Positions 9,539-20,226 of a DNA stretch of 21,139 nt are shown here, piece by piece. The stretch is taken from the IMG/VR virus record IMGVR_UViG_3300035180_001245, positions 1-21,139 of that record; one strand, 5' to 3'. How positions within the stretch are numbered: position 1 is the first letter of the stretch; each line of letters starts with the position of its first letter. The DNA is from a virus. The notes beneath the pieces were generated by a model. It did no database searches. It saw only the letters and a program-made list of their open reading frames with translations, and was not told the origin of the DNA. Both the position numbers and the translations under genes were made by a program.

Positions 9539-11287
9539 ATGCCTATCGCTGGAAGTTATCGTCAATACAATCTACCTGAACTACACAAAAAGTGGAATCA
9601 GTGGCTCACGGGCATTAAGTCCGATGAGATGCGCGATGCTATGGCGGTTCTACTCGAAAACCAACATGCTTGGAACAAGAAAGAAGCTCCTGGACTTTTG
9701 AAGGAAGCTGTTACTACGTCAGACGTGGGTACATTCCAGAAGGTCATTCTTCCCGTCGTTCGCCGTGTGTTCCCAAGGCTTATCGCTCCTGAGCTAGTTG
9801 GTATGCAGCCAATGTCAGGACCTCATGGTCTGGCTATTTTCCTCAAGTATTTCTATGGCAATGCGTCCGACAATGACCAGATCCTTAAACCCCAGGGTAA
9901 CGTCGACGGTCGCAGAGTCAATTTCCGTGAGTACCAGGGAACACAGTGGATGGAAAAGACTGCTGCTGGCGCTCCAGCCAATACTATTACTTATGACTTC
10001 TCTGTACCTAATGTTGGCGCAACGTCTCCAGTCATCCTGCCTTCCTCTGCGGCTGGTGGTGGCGTTATCGCTCCCAATCCCACAGGCAACGCTTGGTTTG
10101 GTCCAGCCACTTTCCGTTTCAATGTCACCGTGACTAACCATGACTCCTCAACTGCAACCGACACAATCGTAGTTTACAATACTGCACCATATAACAGCTA
10201 CACGAGCAGCGGTCAGGTTCCTTCTTGGGCTATCAGGGCTGAGAAAGGCAATATCGCTGTGTCTTTCGGCTCCGCGCCTGATGCAGTTAACGCAGTCTCC
10301 TGCTCTGCTGCCCCAACTGACTACACTCTCGCTGGTCTGAAGTTCACTTTCCTGTGCAAGACTGACGGTACTATGACAGTTAATCCGCAGCCCGTGCCAT
10401 ATACTACGCTAGTCCCCAATGCTACCACGTCAAATGGCGTTTTCAACGATGCAGTTTTCATTGATTCTACTGGCTGCCCAATCATCGCTTCCAGGGGTCT
10501 TGAAAACCAGACTCCAGCAAGCCTTAGCGTCGCTTACGAAACAAAGCCTATCACAGCCGAGACCTTCAAACTGCAGGCTGCTTGGAGCCTAGAAGCAAAC
10601 CAGGACGTAGGTGCACTGCATGGTGAGTCCCTCGAAGAGATTCTCGCCAACCTACTTACTCAAGAGCTTATGAATGAGACAGACTACACCGTAGTCAATG
10701 ACCTTCTGTCTATCGCTGGTCTCGTTCAGACTTGGGGCAGGTATCCTGGCGTCATTACTGGTTTGTCTGGCTCAGGCACTACCTCAATGCCAGCTTTCCG
10801 TGGCAATCTCCAGGACCATTACCAGACCCTCATCATGGCTATGAACGACATGGCTAATGGCATTTTCACTCGTATTCTCCGTGGTCCTGCCAATTTCGCA
10901 GTCTGCGCTCCTGATGTTTCTGCTATCATCGAGAACATCAATGGCTTCAAGTCTGCTGAGATGGGCGACCTCGATAACGAGGCTGGCATTGTCAACGTCG
11001 GTAGCTATCAGTCCAAGTACAAGATTTACAAGGATGCTCGTCTACCAAAGGGCACTATGCTCATGGGTTACAAGGGCAAGGACGCTACCTCAACTGGCTA
11101 TGTGTTCGCACCGTACATCCCCGCCACCCTGTCTCCAGTCATCTGGAATCCAACCACTTATGCACAGTCCAGGATGATTATGACTAGGTTCGGTCGGACA
11201 ACCTTAATGGACGGGCAATTCTTCTATGGCCGGATTCTTGTTACTGAGAACGCTGGTAAAGCCACCTCAGATTTCAGCGCTGTATAA
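9539..11287 (+). CDS. Major capsid protein (T4 gp23-like, HK97 fold) with insertion domain
   Basis: 582 residues. Family marks: GTFQKVILPVVRRVFPRLIA then PELVGMQPMSGPHGLAIFLK (about residues 64-103), equivalent to the gp23 'RRAIPNLIAFDICGVQPMNSPTG' region, and a second conserved block EANQDVGALHGESLEEILAN (about 345-370) matching gp23 'ELAQDLRAVHGLDAEAEL'. Between them (about 145-325) is a Thr/Ser/Pro/Gly-rich beta-like insertion, probably a surface domain. Predicted maturation cut is LKE/A at residues 56/57, just before the conserved core as in T4. Start at ATG 9539, preceded by AGAAGGAGG; the in-frame ATG at 9455 overlaps the scaffold gene and has no good site. Codons end in C more often than in neighbours, as expected for a highly expressed gene. 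Followed by a strong terminator. Confidence 0.95.
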   Translation: MPIAGSYRQYNLPELHKKWNQWLTGIKSDEMRDAMAVLLENQHAWNKKEAPGLLKEAVTTSDVGTFQKVILPVVRRVFPRLIAPELVGMQPMSGPHGLAIFLKYFYGNASDNDQILKPQGNVDGRRVNFREYQGTQWMEKTAAGAPANTITYDFSVPNVGATSPVILPSSAAGGGVIAPNPTGNAWFGPATFRFNVTVTNHDSSTATDTIVVYNTAPYNSYTSSGQVPSWAIRAEKGNIAVSFGSAPDAVNAVSCSAAPTDYTLAGLKFTFLCKTDGTMTVNPQPVPYTTLVPNATTSNGVFNDAVFIDSTGCPIIASRGLENQTPASLSVAYETKPITAETFKLQAAWSLEANQDVGALHGESLEEILANLLTQELMNETDYTVVNDLLSIAGLVQTWGRYPGVITGLSGSGTTSMPAFRGNLQDHYQTLIMAMNDMANGIFTRILRGPANFAVCAPDVSAIIENINGFKSAEMGDLDNEAGIVNVGSYQSKYKIYKDARLPKGTMLMGYKGKDATSTGYVFAPYIPATLSPVIWNPTTYAQSRMIMTRFGRTTLMDGQFFYGRILVTENAGKATSDFSAV

Positions 11288-11310: not shown

Positions 11311-11341
11311 AGGGGCGGTCGCAAGACCGCCTCTTTTTTTG
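11311..11341 (+). terminator. Strong intrinsic terminator after major capsid gene
   Basis: Ten-pair stem: AGGGGCGGTC (11311-11320), GCAA tetraloop, GACCGCCTCT (11325-11334) with one G-T pair, then a run of T to 11340. Followed by GTACC as at two other terminators of the window. Confidence 0.92.
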
Positions 11342-11407: not shown

Positions 11408-11425
11408 GAATATACTTTGGGAGGT
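11408..11425 (+). promoter_or_regulatory. GAATATACTT motif before zinc-finger endonuclease gene
   Basis: GAATATACTTTGGGAGG overlaps the ribosome binding site GGGAGG of the gene at 11431. If TATACT were a normal -10, the transcript would begin at or after that site, so either initiation spacing differs for the phage polymerase or this copy is not used for this gene. It may be the relic of the promoter split by island insertion. Confidence 0.35.
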
Positions 11426-11430
11426 TCCAA

Positions 11431-13197
11431 ATGACAAACAGACTTTGTAAAATATGTCACAAAGAAATTCCTGAAACGATGGGAAAGCGTGCTGTCACTT
11501 GTGGGTCTAAAGAATGCTTGCTACAGGTCAAGCGCACACGACAGGCGCAAACAAAAGTCTGCCCACAGTGCCATAAAGAGTTTCAGACAAAAACAGCAAA
11601 AAGCATTTATTGCAGTCGGTATTGCAAAAACGTAGCTCGTTATTTAGCTGGTAAAGATCGAGCACCGAAGAAGTGTGAAAGATGTGGGGGAATGTTTTTT
11701 TCAAGACCTGGCTCCTCTCGAACACTGTGTCAAGAATGTTTTACTGATAAAAGTCGATTGCAAAAAGAAGAGTTAGATAAGAAGCTAGCAAAGTTTGAAG
11801 GACAAGAAAGCGTTACCTGTCGCATTTGTAATGCTTTGTTCTTGAGTGGCGAAATAACTGGCAAACACCTAAAAAAACATAATTTGACACCAAGTCAATA
11901 TAAAGAGCAATTTGGCGAAGATTCGTTATGGTCAAGCACTAGACGACAAGTAAAGCTAGAGCAATTAAATCGGGCTCGACAGAAACGAGCAAAGCCCGAA
12001 GTGACTAGGACTTGTGCCTTTTGTGGGAAACCGCTCTCACCAACGCAAGACGCTAGCGTTAGCACATGCTCTGCCGCTTGTGGGTATGCTCTGCGAAAAC
12101 AGAAAACCGCAGAACGTATTAGATATTGTAAGGTTTGTAACAAACCTATAGACTTTAGCCCAGGACACCGAGATAGACGAGCAACAACGTGTTCTGAGGA
12201 GTGCGCTCGACTAGCAATCGGAATGAGAAAACCAACATTGAGGGTGTGTGAGTGCTGCGGCAAAACGTTTGAAAGTCGAGCGTCAAAAGCTTCTGCTTGC
12301 CCAGAGTGTCAATCAAAACTGCATCAATTAAAGGACGGTAGAGTTGTCAAGACTTGCGTTCGATGCGGTCGTGAGTTTTTATCTACATCCGAATCTAACG
12401 ACCTCTGTAAAAAATGTTTTCTTTCTCCTGAATCAAAACCTGAAAGGGTTATAGACGACCCAATTGAATGCAAGATTTGTCATCAAAAGTTTTCAGGCAT
12501 TATTACTACCTCACATCTTAAAACTCATGCAATGACGCAAGAACAGTACAAGGCAGCCTACGGTCCTCTGTCAGTAATGACAAGTGCTGTTAGAAATCGA
12601 TTGAATAAGCACAATCCCAAATTTGACGATACACACATCAAGGCACGTGAAGAAGCGTTACGGAAATACGAAGAGTTGCAGCCCAAATGTACTTTTTGTC
12701 ATAAGCTATTGCCATTGAAAAAATTTATGCAAAACTATAGTCGCAAAAAACCAGGAAGCAAATGGGAAGACAAGCCTAGATTTTGTAGCACTAAGTGTCG
12801 AGGTTCGTATTATATCAGTGACGAGTTTCGCAAAATTGCTCCTCACAAGTATTTAAGACCTCGGAGCAAGGGTGAGAAGGCAGTAGAGCAATGGCTTCGT
12901 ACCAACTTTCCCACATTGGAGCTAATAACAAATGACAGAACACAGCTAAAACCGTATGAATTAGACATCTATTTACCTCAGCAAAAGATAGGTATCGAAT
13001 ATCAAGGCAGACAGCACTTTCTACCTGTTTTTGGAGAAAAACGATTTCAGAAATCAATAGAAACTGATGCAAAAAAAGTGGCGCTTGCCGCTGAAAAGGG
13101 CATCACGCTAATTATTATAGATGGCAGAATCAAGTCTTTTGACGAGCAGATAGCACCGCTCAAAGCAGCATTAGCCTCTGTTCTTCCCCCCTCTTGA
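11431..13197 (+). CDS. Putative homing endonuclease: ten zinc-binding modules plus Vsr/EDxHD-type nuclease domain
   Basis: 588 residues. Ten cysteine modules are visible: C6/C9/C24/C29, C44/C47/C61/C65, C82/C85/C100/C103, C130/C133/H146/H150, C195/C198/C213/C217, C233/C236/C254/C258, C273/C276/C290/C293, C309/C312/C326/C329, C347/C350/H362/H366 and C420/C423/C452/C456. The two C2H2 modules share HLK-H-(L/M)T---Y---(F/Y)G, a pattern like MucR/Ros zinc fingers. The C-terminal domain (about 479-585) reads SKGEKAVEQWL, PYELDIYLP, IGIEYQGRQHF and ETDAKK, giving E482, D512, H529 and D546 in the order described for EDxHD (Vsr-like, I-Bth0305I type) nucleases. Start ATG 11431 with GGGAGG. Likely a free-standing mobile endonuclease lodged after the capsid gene, the zinc modules probably reading DNA. 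Family of the nuclease fairly sure; mobility inferred. Confidence 0.85.
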   Translation: MTNRLCKICHKEIPETMGKRAVTCGSKECLLQVKRTRQAQTKVCPQCHKEFQTKTAKSIYCSRYCKNVARYLAGKDRAPKKCERCGGMFFSRPGSSRTLCQECFTDKSRLQKEELDKKLAKFEGQESVTCRICNALFLSGEITGKHLKKHNLTPSQYKEQFGEDSLWSSTRRQVKLEQLNRARQKRAKPEVTRTCAFCGKPLSPTQDASVSTCSAACGYALRKQKTAERIRYCKVCNKPIDFSPGHRDRRATTCSEECARLAIGMRKPTLRVCECCGKTFESRASKASACPECQSKLHQLKDGRVVKTCVRCGREFLSTSESNDLCKKCFLSPESKPERVIDDPIECKICHQKFSGIITTSHLKTHAMTQEQYKAAYGPLSVMTSAVRNRLNKHNPKFDDTHIKAREEALRKYEELQPKCTFCHKLLPLKKFMQNYSRKKPGSKWEDKPRFCSTKCRGSYYISDEFRKIAPHKYLRPRSKGEKAVEQWLRTNFPTLELITNDRTQLKPYELDIYLPQQKIGIEYQGRQHFLPVFGEKRFQKSIETDAKKVALAAEKGITLIIIDGRIKSFDEQIAPLKAALASVLPPS

Positions 13198-13201
13198 ATA
13201 A

Positions 13202-13290
13202 ATGGAAAAGCCTCCCTGCTAGATATTGGGAGGCTTCGCCGTGGTGCGGAGGAGGGAGGTTCCTGTAATTACTTTGGTCGAGGTACTTCC
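13202..13290. repeat. Copy A of an 89-base near-identical repeat (3' end of minus-strand cassette)
   Basis: Matches 16243-16331 with about five mismatches as read. It contains the minus-strand terminator hairpin, a GGAGGGAGG stretch and the last codons (VPRPK) of the small minus-strand gene. Confidence 0.95.
13203..13236 (-). terminator. Minus-strand intrinsic terminator of small cassette A
   Basis: On the minus strand AAGCCTCCC (13236-13228) pairs with GGGAGGCTT (13216-13208), followed by TTTTCC. There is no T run on the + side, so it serves the minus-strand gene at 13269-13478 rather than the convergent endonuclease gene. Confidence 0.75.
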
Positions 13291-13478
13291 CTAGCCACTA
13301 TTTCAAAATATCTACTGTCCTTGTTGACGGGCTTAGTAGTGCCGTCCAAACGAGGGTAGAGTTTAGCAAGATCCCAGTTGTTTTGAATATCCTCTTCAAT
13401 ACTTCTAAGAAATTCTGCCATTTCTTTATCTGTCATTTTGCTAAGTACTACATACACTGTCCTCTTTGTTTTGGACAT
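13269..13478 (-). CDS. Small protein of unknown function, cassette copy A
   Basis: 69 residues, not recognised. Paralogue of the product of 16310-16525: both begin MxKxK, share a helical middle (K-T--EM--FL--IE-DI-NNW) and end in EVPRPK. Mixed charge, no signal peptide or membrane segment. AGGAG lies nine bases before ATG 13478. The gene has its own promoter (13501-13530) and terminator (13203-13236), and runs against the late genes, like a moron cassette. It is convergent with the endonuclease gene ending at 13197. Conservation between the two copies supports a real protein. Confidence 0.8.
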   Translation of the reverse strand: MSKTKRTVYVVLSKMTDKEMAEFLRSIEEDIQNNWDLAKLYPRLDGTTKPVNKDSRYFEIVAREVPRPK

Positions 13479-13500: not shown

Positions 13501-13530
13501 AGTATAGCACAAACTTTTGGACATTGACTC
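13501..13530 (-). promoter_or_regulatory. Island promoter P1 (GAGTCAAT box, 16 bases, TATACT), minus strand
   Basis: Read on the minus strand: TTTCGAGTCAAT (box at 13530-13523), 16 bases ending TGTGC, TATACT (13506-13501). TGC before TATACT is an extended -10. No sigma70-like TTGACA at the right spacing; the box takes its place. Drives the gene starting at 13478. Confidence 0.75.
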
Positions 13531-13565: not shown

Positions 13566-13595
13566 GAGTCAATGTAGCCTGTCCTCTGTTATAAT
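13566..13595 (+). promoter_or_regulatory. Island promoter P6 (GAGTCAAT box, 16 bases, TATAAT), plus strand
   Basis: GAGTCAAT 13566-13573, 16 bases, TATAAT 13590-13595. Divergent from P1; their boxes form an inverted repeat with a roughly 35-base loop. Drives the small-gene operon 13615-15778. Confidence 0.75.
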
Positions 13596-14181: not shown

Positions 14182-14263
14182 CCTTGAGTGTGATTAGAGT
14201 TATAAAGAGTACGAATGATACTTTAAGGAGACGAAGCAGGCAATGCTTGATGTGGAGAAGAAA

Positions 14264-14659
14264 ATGAGCGAGAAACCTAAAGTCACGCGCACTGAACGGG
14301 GTTGGGGTGGACATTTTATTGGAGTGAGCCGTTGTCGCTTCAGACGAAATACTTTGCTAGAATGCGGCGAAGAAAGAATCGTAGTTTCCACAGTCGGGGC
14401 GGCTACGGAAGACCATGGAGATGAGGAACAGTTCAGCACAATAGGTCTAGACCGATATTATGAGACGGCGGCATTCCGAGCCGTAAAGTCTGGCATTTAT
14501 TGGGAGGCTGACGTGACGAAGCAGGTTCCCTTCAAGGGCAACTGGTATATCTCTACGTTGTCGGAGACCTCTGACGCGGAAGCCAACGATATGCACGAAG
14601 CGGTAGTGGCAGAGCTTACCGAACAGCTACAGAATCGTGCACGAAGGAGGAGAGCATGA
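14264..14659 (+). CDS. Phage protein of unknown function, tandem paralogue 1 (FRRNTLLE family)
   Basis: 131 residues. Signature blocks: TERGWGGHFIGVSRCRFRRN, TLLECGEERIVVSTVG, RYYETAAFRA, GIYWEADVTKQVPFKGNW, ANDMHEAVVAELTEQL. From memory this resembles a widespread family of uncharacterised phage proteins; no function is known to me. Beta-rich in the first two thirds, then a helix ending in Arg-rich RARRRR. The start at ATG 14264 (MSEKPKVTRTERGW) lines up with the paralogue start MSENKVTRTERGW and has GGAG seven bases upstream; ATG 14243 is an alternative with AAGGAG further away. Stop overlaps the next start (ATGA at 14656). Confidence 0.8.
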   Translation: MSEKPKVTRTERGWGGHFIGVSRCRFRRNTLLECGEERIVVSTVGAATEDHGDEEQFSTIGLDRYYETAAFRAVKSGIYWEADVTKQVPFKGNWYISTLSETSDAEANDMHEAVVAELTEQLQNRARRRRA

Positions 14660-14768
14660 GCGAGAATAAAGTTACGCGCACTGAACGGGGTTGGGATGAG
14701 CATTTTATTGAAACGAGTCACTGCCATTTCAGACGAAATACTTTGCTAGAATGCGGCGAAGAAAGAAT
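14339..14768 (+). repeat. 41-base identical segments in tandem paralogous genes
   Basis: Bases 14339-14379 and 14728-14768 are identical as read (from TTCAGACGAAATACTTTGCT to GAAGAAAGAAT), 389 bases apart, inside two homologous genes. An AAGGAGACGAAGCAG segment is also shared by 14224-14238 and 15027-15041, so the duplicated unit seems to include leader sequence. Confidence 0.9.
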
Positions 14769-15060
14769 TGTAGTCGTCACGATTGGAACCCCAGACGGCG
14801 GTGAGCAGGAAAAAGGGTGTGGGCATTATGAGACTATGGCTTTTAAGGCTAAAAAGGTCGGCATATATTGGGGGGCAGACAGGACGAAGAAGGTCAACTT
14901 TAAGGGCAACCGACATATACCTAGAGAGTACTTTCACCCCTCGCCGGAAACCGTCAATTTAGAGGCAAATAACATGCACGAGGCTGTCGTAGCAGAAATT
15001 AGCGAACGGCTACTGCGCCGTGCACAAAGGAGACGAAGCAGCCATGCTCATGCTGGATAA
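14656..15060 (+). CDS. Phage protein of unknown function, tandem paralogue 2 (FRRNTLLE family)
   Basis: 134 residues. Product of a tandem duplication of the previous gene: TERGWDEHFIETSHCHFRRN, TLLECGEERIVVVTIG, YETMAFKAKKVGIYWGAD, MHEAVVAEI. It lacks some residues between the beta blocks, and the second half has diverged (HIPREYFHPSPE). ATG 14656 overlaps the preceding stop and has GGAGG at 14646-14650. Its last 17 bases overlap the next gene. Divergence in one half with near identity in the other suggests either partial gene conversion or relaxed selection on the end. Confidence 0.8.
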   Translation: MSENKVTRTERGWDEHFIETSHCHFRRNTLLECGEERIVVVTIGTPDGGEQEKGCGHYETMAFKAKKVGIYWGADRTKKVNFKGNRHIPREYFHPSPETVNLEANNMHEAVVAEISERLLRRAQRRRSSHAHAG

Positions 15061-16137: not shown

Positions 16138-16167
16138 AGTATAGCACAAACTTCTGATCATTGACTC
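16138..16167 (-). promoter_or_regulatory. Island promoter P3 (GAGTCAAT box, 16 bases, TATACT), minus strand
   Basis: Box at 16167-16160, TATACT at 16143-16138, with TGTGC immediately before it, all matching P1. The only member of the set with no protein gene downstream. Confidence 0.7.
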
Positions 16168-16242: not shown

Positions 16243-16331
16243 ATGGAAAAGCCTCCCTGCTAGATATTGGGAGGCTTCGCCGTGGTACAAAGGAGGGAGG
16301 TTCCTATAATTACTTTGGCCGAGGTACTTCC
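16243..16331. repeat. Copy B of the 89-base near-identical repeat
   Basis: Matches 13202-13290 with about five mismatches as read, 3041 bases apart and in the same orientation. Confidence 0.95.
16245..16277 (-). terminator. Minus-strand intrinsic terminator of small cassette B
   Basis: The same hairpin as cassette A: arms 16249-16257 and 16269-16277, followed on the minus strand by TTTTCC. Confidence 0.75.
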
Positions 16332-16525
16332 TTGGCTGTGACTGTTATCTCGAAGCACCTAGCGTTAATATCGTCATCAAGTTCACTATTTTTGGTCAAG
16401 TGATATAAGTCATAGTCCTCCCAATTGTTTAGGATATCGCGTTCAATACCCGCAAGAAACTTTGACATCTCCCTGTTTGTTCTTTTACCGTATGCCACGA
16501 ATAAGGGTTTCTTTGCTTTGTTCAT
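16310..16525 (-). CDS. Small protein of unknown function, cassette copy B
   Basis: 71 residues, paralogue of the product of 13269-13478. Shared features: basic start MNKAKK, K-T--EM--FL--IE-DILNNW and the C-terminal EVPRPK. The middle (DYDLYHLTKNSELDDDINAR) has diverged, so the proteins are about half identical while the 3' flank is nearly identical at DNA level, which suggests recombination at the flank or strong constraint there. AGGAG precedes ATG 16525. Own promoter P2 and own terminator. Confidence 0.8.
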   Translation of the reverse strand: MNKAKKPLFVAYGKRTNREMSKFLAGIERDILNNWEDYDLYHLTKNSELDDDINARCFEITVTAKEVPRPK

Positions 16526-16544: not shown

Positions 16545-16574
16545 AGTATAGCACAAACCCTCGAACATTGACTT
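16545..16574 (-). promoter_or_regulatory. Island promoter P2 (AAGTCAAT box, 16 bases, TATACT), minus strand
   Basis: Box variant AAGTCAAT at 16574-16567, 16 bases ending TTTGTGC, TATACT at 16550-16545. Drives the gene starting at 16525. Confidence 0.7.
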
Positions 16575-16796: not shown

Positions 16797-16826
16797 ATTA
16801 TAGCACAGTCCCAAGGACATTGACTC
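16797..16826 (-). promoter_or_regulatory. Island promoter P4 (GAGTCAAT box, 16 bases, TATAAT), minus strand
   Basis: Box at 16826-16819, TATAAT at 16802-16797 preceded by TGTGC. Back to back with P5: the two boxes form the inverted repeat ATTGACTC, eight bases, GAGTCAAT. Confidence 0.75.
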
Positions 16827-16834
16827 GAAATTTA

Positions 16835-16864
16835 GAGTCAATACTCAAAGTTCTATGATATACT
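16835..16864 (+). promoter_or_regulatory. Island promoter P5 (GAGTCAAT box, 16 bases, TATACT), plus strand
   Basis: GAGTCAAT 16835-16842, 16 bases, TGA then TATACT 16859-16864. Drives the HNH gene at 16885. Confidence 0.75.
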
Positions 16865-16884
16865 GTCGACATAGGAGGAAACGG

Positions 16885-18066
16885 ATGAACGAAGTAGAAA
16901 AGACATTAGGTAAGCAAGACGAGCGCGCATCTGGGGAATTAACATTCATTAGGTCGAGAGCACCGAACCTCGAAGGACAAAGATTTGGTAAATTAGTGGT
17001 ACTTCGACGTGTTCCAAACAGAAAAGTGAAACACAGAACTTATGCTCAGTGGCTCTGCAGATGTGATTGCGGTAGAGAAATTGTTACCTTTTCTAGTGCG
17101 CTTCGTTCAGGGAACACTAGAAGTTGCCACTGTTTACCGCGTAAGTCGTTATCAACAGTAAAGAGTCTTAAAGGGCAAAGATTTGGGAAATTATTAGCGC
17201 TAGAACGAAGTCGGAATGGCTGGCTCTGTCACTGTGATTGCGGAAACGAAGTTGTTGTGCCAAGGCACAAATTGCTAAGTGGAAGAATTGACCGTTGTAG
17301 AGAGTGCGCAAAAACACAGCTTCCCACTAACAGAAAAACAGCATTTGAGTATCTGTTTACTATGTTTTGTCACAACGCAAAAAATCAAAGCCTAAGACAG
17401 GAGCTTTCAAAAGAAAAATTTTATGAGCTTAGTACTCAACCGTGTTATTATTGCGGTAAAGCGCCTGCTAACGTGCTTGTGTCTAAAAGTGTGCACGATA
17501 CATTCATCTACAATGGCATAAACAGAGTTGACGGCAGAATAAAAGCGTATACTATTGACAACTCTGTCCCAGCGTGTAAAGCTTGTAACTACGCCAAGTA
17601 TGGACAAACTCTTGACTATTTTCGTGAGCTAGTTATAAAGGTTTACAATACGCTTGTTGTTCAAAGACGCTCTCCCGCTGTTTATGCGACCGAGTTGCTT
17701 AAAATACTAGACACTGAGTTGCCTCCGTCTCCTGTTCGCTCTCTTGTTGTTGAGTGGAAATGGCTAGCAAAGCAAAGAAAAAAACTTTGGTCGTTGACCA
17801 ATGCTCAGGCAGCCTGGTTGTCTCAGCAACCCTGTTTTTATTGTGGTAAAAAACCTTCTCAATTGCGTAAAAAGTGCATACATTCGGGTTTGGACCTAAT
17901 TGATAATGAGAAAGGCTATGAAATCGGCAATGTTGTGCCATGTTGTAAAGCTTGCAACATCGCCAAAAATACTATGACTATTGACCAGTTCAGGGATTGG
18001 GTGACTGCTGTTTATTTGCATTGGGTTTTACCAAACACCCCCAACAATGAACAAATCAAACCTTGA
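16885..18066 (+). CDS. HNH homing-endonuclease-like protein with doubled N-terminal module and two HNH domains
   Basis: 393 residues, built as two pairs of repeats. Module 1 (about residues 28-84): L-GQRFGKL-VL-R then W-CRCDCG and CHC; module 2 (95-142) repeats it with LKGQRFGKLLALER, WLCHCDCG and CREC. Such GQRFGKL modules precede HNH domains in many phage endonucleases and probably bind DNA. HNH domain A (185-245): QPCYYCGK, YNGINRVDG, VPACKACNYAK; HNH domain B (315-365): QPCFYCGK, SGLDLIDNEKGY, VPCCKACNIAK. In B the usual NGIDR reads SGLDL, so it may be catalytically weak. Start at ATG 16885 after ATAGGAGG; the upstream ATG 16855 lies on the -10. Likely a mobile endonuclease marking the right edge of the island. 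Confidence 0.87.
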   Translation: MNEVEKTLGKQDERASGELTFIRSRAPNLEGQRFGKLVVLRRVPNRKVKHRTYAQWLCRCDCGREIVTFSSALRSGNTRSCHCLPRKSLSTVKSLKGQRFGKLLALERSRNGWLCHCDCGNEVVVPRHKLLSGRIDRCRECAKTQLPTNRKTAFEYLFTMFCHNAKNQSLRQELSKEKFYELSTQPCYYCGKAPANVLVSKSVHDTFIYNGINRVDGRIKAYTIDNSVPACKACNYAKYGQTLDYFRELVIKVYNTLVVQRRSPAVYATELLKILDTELPPSPVRSLVVEWKWLAKQRKKLWSLTNAQAAWLSQQPCFYCGKKPSQLRKKCIHSGLDLIDNEKGYEIGNVVPCCKACNIAKNTMTIDQFRDWVTAVYLHWVLPNTPNNEQIKP

Positions 18067-18225: not shown

Positions 18226-20226
18226 ATGAAAAAAATCTCAAGTAATGAGCAGGAAGTTGTAAAAGAAGCTGCTGAAGAAGAGTTTCTACCATTTAAGGTT
18301 TCAGATTTTAGCGTTGGATCAGGAGTGTATGCAACTATTTCAGAGAATAGACGGACCATAGCGGGTATTGAGCTTTACAATTTGTTAGCTTCAGCCGATG
18401 ACTTGGAAAATGGCAAGCTGCTATCCCCTCCGTGGCAAATAGAGTTTTTCTCAGGGGATAACCACGAGCTTCTTGCTAAGGTGAACTCAACTAAATGGCC
18501 AGGAAAACGTCCAGTTATCAAAATGGTAGCCGATATACTTAAAGGCAAAAAAATAGAAGCCGAAGCCGCACAAGAGACGGACGCCGTACCGTTGCCTCCT
18601 GAAAACGTTACTGGCGGACAGCCTGCTATTGAAGAGCCGCAGCAATCAGGTGCTCCTGCGCAACCACCAACTAGAGAATCTCGCAATCCTCTTCTAGGCG
18701 AAAAGGTTCTTGGCGAGGAATCTGAACCAGAAGGCGGAGACACAGTGACTGAGGCTGAGGCAAAAGAAAAGTGGGCACAAGCGGCTTCCGAAAAGATGGC
18801 AGAAAAGGGTACTAAAGGCTCATTGACGAAGATAGCTAAGAGCAAAGGTGGTTATGACGAGAAGGCAGGAAAGATAAAGAAGTCCTGGCTTAACAAAGCC
18901 GCGAAAGGCGATTTTGGGCCTAAAATACAGAAGAAAGCCAATTTTGCAAAAAATATCAATAAAGAATCCAAAGACGAAACAGGCGGCGGACATTGTGACA
19001 GATGCGGCAAGGCATCTCCGCTCACGCCAGTTAATGCCGCAGACGGCACAACGCTAGGCTTTTTCTGTCCTCGGTGCCACATGGCAGTACAGCGGATGGT
19101 TGATAAAGTATCTGATTGGCATGGCGCGTACAAAGGCAAAGCGTCTCCTCGTCACACCCCGCATTTCAATGCGTGGGAAGACGTGGAAGACTACATCACT
19201 AAACACGAAAAAGAGATACCCATAACAACGGAATCTAGGGAGGCAAAAATGAAGAGGATAGTGGCTCTTACTGAAGCACAGGTAAAAAGAATTAGTGGAT
19301 ATTTGACCCAGGAATCGAAAGAGTTCTTAAAAGCTCTTCCTGTGGATGTTAGAGCGAATGCGGTTAGGCAGCTATTGACGTTCGAGGCAAGATGCCGCAC
19401 AAAGCTCAAACTCAATGAAGCCCAGACTGCTGAAAAACTTAACGCCGCCGTACTCAAAGCCGCAGGTAACGCCGAAGGCAAGTCTGAGGAAAAAGATAAG
19501 CTTCCCAAGGCTAGCTTCAAAATGTCAAAGACAGGAAAGCCAGGAACTGCTGAAGGTACTGAAGAAGTCAAAGCAGTGAAGGAGGCTAAAGAAGCGCCTG
19601 AAGACAACAAAATAGTGGAGTTCAAGACAGCATTTGGTAATATTGTGAAAGAAGCCAAAGCAAAGTCCACTATTAAGGAGGGGGTTAAAGTATGTGACAT
19701 CTGCTCTGGCGTTCTTCGTGAATCAGGCAGACATAGTTTGGCATCGACAGTTCGTCTTGCCTCCGAAGTAGCCAAAGGCTATATCACCAATGAGATTAGC
19801 AGAGAGGCTCTTCCTGAGACTATCAAAGAGATGGCTGACCACACAGGATTTTCTACCGCCGCCATTGCTAAGCTCGTCAAAGAGTCTGCAATGACACAGT
19901 TAAAAGCTCTTCGCGCAAAAGTAACAGCGGCTGATTCTAAAGACTTTATGCTTGAGGCTCGTAGACTGCTTGCTGGTGCCGCAAAAGTAGAAAAGGTGTT
20001 CACTGAATCAGCAAAAACTGATGAGACGCCAACAGTTATTACGGAAACAGCGCAACTTACTATTACAGAGACTACCGAAGCTACTGAAGCTGCTCCAGCC
20101 ATTGAGGAAACTGTGGGCCTTGATAAGAAACTCCTGAAAGAGACTGCGGCAGTGGAAGCCACGCAGAAGTTTTTGGAATCAATGGAACGAATAGACTACC
20201 TCAAAACACTGGAAGTACCAGAATAA
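18226..20226 (+). CDS. Lys/Glu/Ala-rich putative virion protein with zinc ribbon; function unknown
   Basis: 666 residues, not recognised as a named family. Order of parts: folded N-terminus (about 1-105); a Pro/Glu linker; a basic helical segment at about 185-250 (KGTKGSLTKIAKSKGGYDEK ... KKANFAKNINK) of a kind I recall from other phage proteins; a four-Cys zinc ribbon C257/C260...C281/C284 followed by DWHGAYKGKASPRHTPHFNA; then long Lys/Glu/Ala helices to the end, with an isolated CDIC at 490-493. Many (I/L/V)-x-E-(A/S) segments resemble gp21-type cut sites. Start ATG 18226 with GAGGAG upstream. It lies between capsid and neck genes, so a head-associated or packaged internal protein is plausible; this is inference from position and composition only. 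Confidence 0.82.
   Translation: MKKISSNEQEVVKEAAEEEFLPFKVSDFSVGSGVYATISENRRTIAGIELYNLLASADDLENGKLLSPPWQIEFFSGDNHELLAKVNSTKWPGKRPVIKMVADILKGKKIEAEAAQETDAVPLPPENVTGGQPAIEEPQQSGAPAQPPTRESRNPLLGEKVLGEESEPEGGDTVTEAEAKEKWAQAASEKMAEKGTKGSLTKIAKSKGGYDEKAGKIKKSWLNKAAKGDFGPKIQKKANFAKNINKESKDETGGGHCDRCGKASPLTPVNAADGTTLGFFCPRCHMAVQRMVDKVSDWHGAYKGKASPRHTPHFNAWEDVEDYITKHEKEIPITTESREAKMKRIVALTEAQVKRISGYLTQESKEFLKALPVDVRANAVRQLLTFEARCRTKLKLNEAQTAEKLNAAVLKAAGNAEGKSEEKDKLPKASFKMSKTGKPGTAEGTEEVKAVKEAKEAPEDNKIVEFKTAFGNIVKEAKAKSTIKEGVKVCDICSGVLRESGRHSLASTVRLASEVAKGYITNEISREALPETIKEMADHTGFSTAAIAKLVKESAMTQLKALRAKVTAADSKDFMLEARRLLAGAAKVEKVFTESAKTDETPTVITETAQLTITETTEATEAAPAIEETVGLDKKLLKETAAVEATQKFLESMERIDYLKTLEVPE

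Follow-up and report, generated by a model that had tools for sequence, protein, structure and literature searches.

The gene behind the major capsid gene

The window analysed here, the whole 21-kb stretch of 21,139 nucleotides taken from IMG/VR, is a fragment of a tailed phage with a T4-like portal and a gene order that is protease/scaffold/capsid-like. Its gp23-like major capsid gene has its last base at 11287 and is followed by a strong intrinsic terminator (11311-11334, on the plus strand, as are all features of the endonuclease gene given below), a 10-pair stem and then a T run, which is conserved in L001, a sister phage represented by one IMG/VR contig. The gene under study opens 96 bases beyond this terminator, with an ATG at 11431 preceded by a GGGAGG ribosome-binding site read from the sequence (11419-11424), and extends to a TGA ending at 13197; its 588-residue product carries ten zinc modules followed by an EDxHD/Vsr nuclease domain. 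The original prediction had set the gene straight after the capsid terminator, and this placement is correct.

The L001 ortholog occupies the same place, encodes a protein with 83% identity and, like the window gene, is intact. Comparison of the two genes gave an overall dN/dS of 0.14 and therefore indicates purifying selection. A search with Rfam for a group I intron context found no match within the window, and the gene was thus taken as free-standing and intron-less.

The zinc-module array and its duplicated cassette

As originally predicted, the array combines eight C4 modules with two C2H2 modules of the Ros/MucR type. The C4 modules are treble-clef-like and built of CxxC followed by CxxC, CxxxC or CxxxxC. 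From the N-terminus, each module starting at its first ligand, these are M1 (C6 C9 C24 C29; 11446-11517), M2 (C44 C47 C61 C65; 11560-11625), M3 (C82 C85 C100 C103; 11674-11739), the first Ros/MucR-like module R4 (C130 C133 H146 H150; 11818-11880), M5 (C195 C198 C213 C217; 12013-12081), M6 (C233 C236 C254 C258; 12127-12204), M7 (C273 C276 C290 C293; 12247-12309), M8 (C309 C312 C326 C329; 12355-12417), the second Ros/MucR-like module R9 (C347 C350 H362 H366; 12469-12528) and the FCS-like M10 (C420 C423 C452 C456; 12688-12798), which adjoins the nuclease. The ten four-ligand modules account for 36 of the 37 cysteines of the protein plus four histidines; the only non-ligand cysteine, C275, lacks conservation, and there are no cysteines in the nuclease domain. 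All 40 predicted zinc ligands are invariant in L001 despite differences at about 17% of residues, so that the module pattern is not due to chance. Pfam ROS_MUCR (PF05443) matched R4 and R9 in two stretches, with 28.3 bits for the whole protein against a gathering score of 25.4, and zf-FCS matched the last module weakly, below its own gathering score. The array is strongly basic (pI 9.6). Full-length structure prediction from a two-sequence alignment modelled its fold only weakly (mean pLDDT 50.7); in this low-confidence model, on which we did not rely, several module helices begin where the second pair of ligands lies, which is also the case in treble clefs.

Local alignment of the modules with each other gave M1-M6, M2-M7, M3-M8 and R4-R9 as the best-scoring partners, and residues 4-185 align collinearly with residues 231-397 with a score of 220 (278 in L001). 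In 500 shuffles with the Cys/His positions fixed, the score had a mean of 60.5, a standard deviation of 11.9 and a maximum of 117. By this comparison the array is a four-module cassette of three C4 modules and one Ros-type module that has been tandemly duplicated, with cassette A (M1-M2-M3-R4) at 11440-11985 and cassette B (M6-M7-M8-R9) at 12121-12621, plus the single modules M5, between the two cassettes, and M10. A repeatedly expanded array had been proposed, and this internal duplication bears the idea out.

The two copies of the Ros module have fared differently between the two phages. Protein identity between window and L001 is 94% in the R4 region and 42% in the R9 region (67 codons), with dN values of 0.02 and 0.57, respectively. 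Gene conversion of the L001 R9 from R4, or a recent copy of R4, could be ruled out, as their DNA identity is 52%. The nuclease centre is likewise highly diverged, and the synonymous difference along the gene varies from 0.11 to 0.90 per 30 codons, swings that are larger than those in the capsid, scaffold and protease genes. The divergence of R9 compared to R4 suggests, from sequence comparison, that a module has been replaced, and the patchy pattern suggests exchange between endonuclease alleles, a suggestion we keep as such because some other genes are also uneven in synonymous difference.

The nuclease domain and its relatives

The EDxHD/Vsr nuclease domain covers residues 463-588 (12817-13194), with E482, D512, E523, H529, D546 and K549 as its characteristic residues. 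An AlphaFold2 model built on an alignment of 75 relatives showed, with a mean pLDDT of 90.5, a helix, three strands, a helix and a strand, and its best solved match in VIA-align was the catalytic domain of I-Bth0305I (3r3p; Z 12.0, rmsd 2.6, 96/97 residues), tied with the next one, E. coli Vsr (1cw0; Z 11.7). The PD-(D/E)xK/Vsr core that had been anticipated is thus present in the predicted fold. By sequence alone, the profile of the 75 relatives also placed 3r3p first among solved structures, weakly (E 0.011). The window domain alone matched no Pfam family: the Vsr mismatch-repair family (PF03852), with which the fold is common, weakly matched one of the 75 relatives, and a DUF559 identity was rejected, with weak matches in 8 of the 75 and none for the window domain. 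Matches in PHROG were to homing/HNH endonuclease families, down to 1.9e-21.

The catalytic positions E482, D512, H529 and D546, in EDxHD order, lie exactly where they had been predicted and are conserved columns in the relatives. In an alignment of ten C-terminal domains, including proteins from Staphylococcus, Enterococcus, Klebsiella, Bacillus, Vibrio and Pseudomonas phages, E482, D512, E523, G526, H529 and K549 are among the invariant columns; across the 75 relatives there is no variation at E482, D512, E523, G526 and K549 and almost none at H529 and D546; and the four EDxHD residues are unchanged in L001. That the gene is a decayed or inactive homing endonuclease carried along by hitchhiking would fit with no empty site being known, but it is extremely improbable for a gene that is intact in both phages, is under purifying selection by its low dN/dS and has kept all its zinc ligands and catalytic residues.

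In a tree of 177 Vsr domains (96 columns), the window protein and its L001 ortholog group with 13 short IMG/VR proteins (L177, L179-L182, L184-L186, L194, L214, L219, L236 and L239) with moderate support (0.81). This nearest clade shares with the window protein the closest nuclease domains, the C4 module type and the absence of a long C-terminal extension, but its members usually carry two modules (range 2-6, with six in L181) and no Ros module. The zinc modules are therefore kept in homologues, as had been expected, completely in the ortholog and, with fewer modules, in the nearest clade, and M10 may correspond to the nuclease-adjacent modules of the latter.

Counting modules by pattern and HMM matches over the 177 Vsr proteins, whose loci were chosen by similarity and so do not form a census, gave 0-4 modules in 156, 5-7 in 18 and ten in three, these being the window protein, its ortholog and L080, which has modules of another zinc type. 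The earlier statement that homing endonucleases usually have one or a few modules goes too far for the Vsr class, in which 45 of the 177 proteins carry 4-10. Ten modules are a tail value and not unique, L080 having ruled out that they are unheard of. The L080 protein is a 798-residue open frame (L080 2024-4417, on an IMG/VR contig of 129 kb) in which ten modules of the CapR/DUF4379 type precede the Vsr domain; it has seven-module relatives in L071 and L070 and no close match among GenBank phages.

Among known systems, I-Bth0305I resembles the window protein in its catalytic fold, in the aligned E and final D and in being multi-domain, and its DNA target is long, at just under 60 bp (review PMC3943268). 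The two domains are 19% identical, the crystallised chain of 3r3p apparently has Ala at the D and H positions, and I-Bth0305I is intron-encoded (review PMC3943268), unlike the window gene; no ten-module zinc array is reported for it in the literature examined. A large EDxHD/Vsr outgroup has repeated small zinc modules and then a C-terminal EDxHD/Vsr-like domain, the modules, three to five, being CapR/DUF4379/DUF723-like (PMC12350094). Phage examples found here are Stau2, Enterococcus phage 113, L076 and L080, the last two with matches to these module families in Pfam, whereas the window protein has none and carries C4 treble-clef-like and Ros/MucR modules instead. The Hef-like proteins of PA5oct, Kuja, L092 (its copy L092a) and L123 also have zinc modules, in most of them including Ros-type ones, before a Vsr domain and lie beside capsid or tail genes, but they continue for about 200 residues beyond the nuclease (GNAT-like in L123), where the window protein terminates with the nuclease domain and lacks this long C-terminal domain. 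T5orf172 homing endonucleases have repeated zinc domains arranged as beads-on-a-string, with module recombination and domain swapping (PMC10448857), and a nuclease domain that differs from that of the window protein.

Position beside the capsid gene, the downstream island and the proposed function

The relatives annotated or placed as homing endonucleases lie inside split terminase genes or beside structural genes. Independent Ros plus Vsr endonucleases adjoin T4-like capsid genes in L092 (the huge phage LR756508), which has two, and in L123; a Vsr-type endonuclease lies beside the T4-like capsid gene of Vibrio phage Kuja, and in T4 itself segD lies between genes 23 and 24 (PMC2988022). In the stretch examined around 80 distant capsid loci, a Vsr gene was found in only two, in one of which it directly adjoins the capsid gene. 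The capsid-adjacent spot is therefore used repeatedly, not often. An annotated "HNH endonuclease" near the capsid gene of RM378 was set aside as evidence, since no nuclease motif is recognisable in its sequence. Near the L092 capsid gene, a 644-aa protein (L092 8564-10498) combines several C2H2 modules of Ros-like type with a Vsr-like domain and, as judged by eye, an additional domain resembling a DNA methyltransferase.

A location after the capsid terminator would also suit a regulator, in which the array would bind DNA of the capsid region and, like CapR in ICP1, control transcription, and homing-endonuclease zinc modules have indeed been reused as CapR, the repressor of ICP1 capsid expression (PMC10448857). 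We nevertheless regard a regulator, as opposed to a mobile gene, as very unlikely, because all catalytic columns are kept and the gene is under purifying selection, while a pure regulator has no need of a nuclease. Unlikely too, if a little less so, is an exclusion weapon whose nuclease cuts satellites or co-infecting phages, with homing secondary or absent: conflicts between phages and satellites have recruited related endonuclease domains (PMC10448857), and an arms race might yield an R9 as different as that of the two phages, but PADLOC gave no match and the capsid-adjacent position, shared with Kuja, L092, L123 and T4 segD (PMC2988022), suits homing endonucleases.

We consider it most likely that this gene, lying behind a T4-like capsid gene, encodes a free-standing EDxHD/Vsr-type homing endonuclease, that its array would read the target and that the gene would home; it is probably selfish. 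The ten zinc modules would act as independently folded beads along the DNA and select the target, which the C-terminal Vsr-like domain would cut using E482, D512, H529 and D546 with a metal. During a mixed infection, the enzyme would cleave a relative without the gene, the cut probably falling within or close to the capsid gene or the adjacent gene, and use of the carrier as the repair template would transfer the gene to that relative. Free-standing endonucleases can cut hundreds to thousands of bases from their gene (PMC2988022), so that the target may be the capsid or a neighbouring gene and not the junction. Searches with the capsid protein and the product of the gene at 18226 as queries found no island-free relative; the one close relative found, L001, carries the gene, and the other capsid relatives are about 30% identical. 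The array grew by tandem duplication of the four-module cassette, and single modules seem to be replaceable, which would shift the target. We propose more tentatively, as a possibility we hold to be rather doubtful, that the array reads a target longer than the ~60 bp of I-Bth0305I, that targets evolve by exchange of whole modules or cassettes and that the R9 difference reflects recent retargeting.

Several further features were observed in the island downstream of the endonuclease gene. Five copies of GTCAATG-N15-TATA (13503-13528, minus; 13568-13593, plus; 16140-16165, 16547-16572 and 16799-16824, all minus) lie within the island at 13.5-16.9 kb, compared to a chance expectation of 0.06, and look like a phage promoter family for the small island genes. 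A 94-base direct repeat, 93% identical between 13202-13295 and 16243-16336, contains a stem-loop and the ends of two small genes that resemble each other and run on the minus strand (69 and 71 aa). In L001, 1.2 kb with two ORFs of 240 and 137 aa (9811-11024) separates the endonuclease gene from the island gene that follows, at exactly the point where the endonuclease gene ends in the window (13201/13202), and duplicated ORFs at 14243-15060 of the window are absent from L001. The island also holds a second endonuclease gene (16855-18066) and is thus bounded by two. The 403-aa product of this second gene contains a repeat with cysteines, present twice, as well as two regions that resemble HNH/endonuclease VII (PHROG E 1.8e-26 and 4.4e-24).

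Long, shuffling zinc arrays in homing endonucleases have already been described; the literature searched contained no cassette array that mixes C4 and Ros modules. New here are the cassette duplication, the divergence of R9 compared to R4 and a nearest clade with 2-6 modules of the same C4 type, and the window gene is a real, expanded, long variant of a known gene type. It adds an endonuclease beside a T4-like major capsid gene, at a spot also occupied in L092, L123, Kuja and T4 (segD). It also provides a natural zinc array whose growth is still legible, as a cassette duplication and then an apparent module replacement, and the relatives with short arrays of two to six modules form a length series; together, these allow tests of how homing endonucleases acquire and alter long targets.
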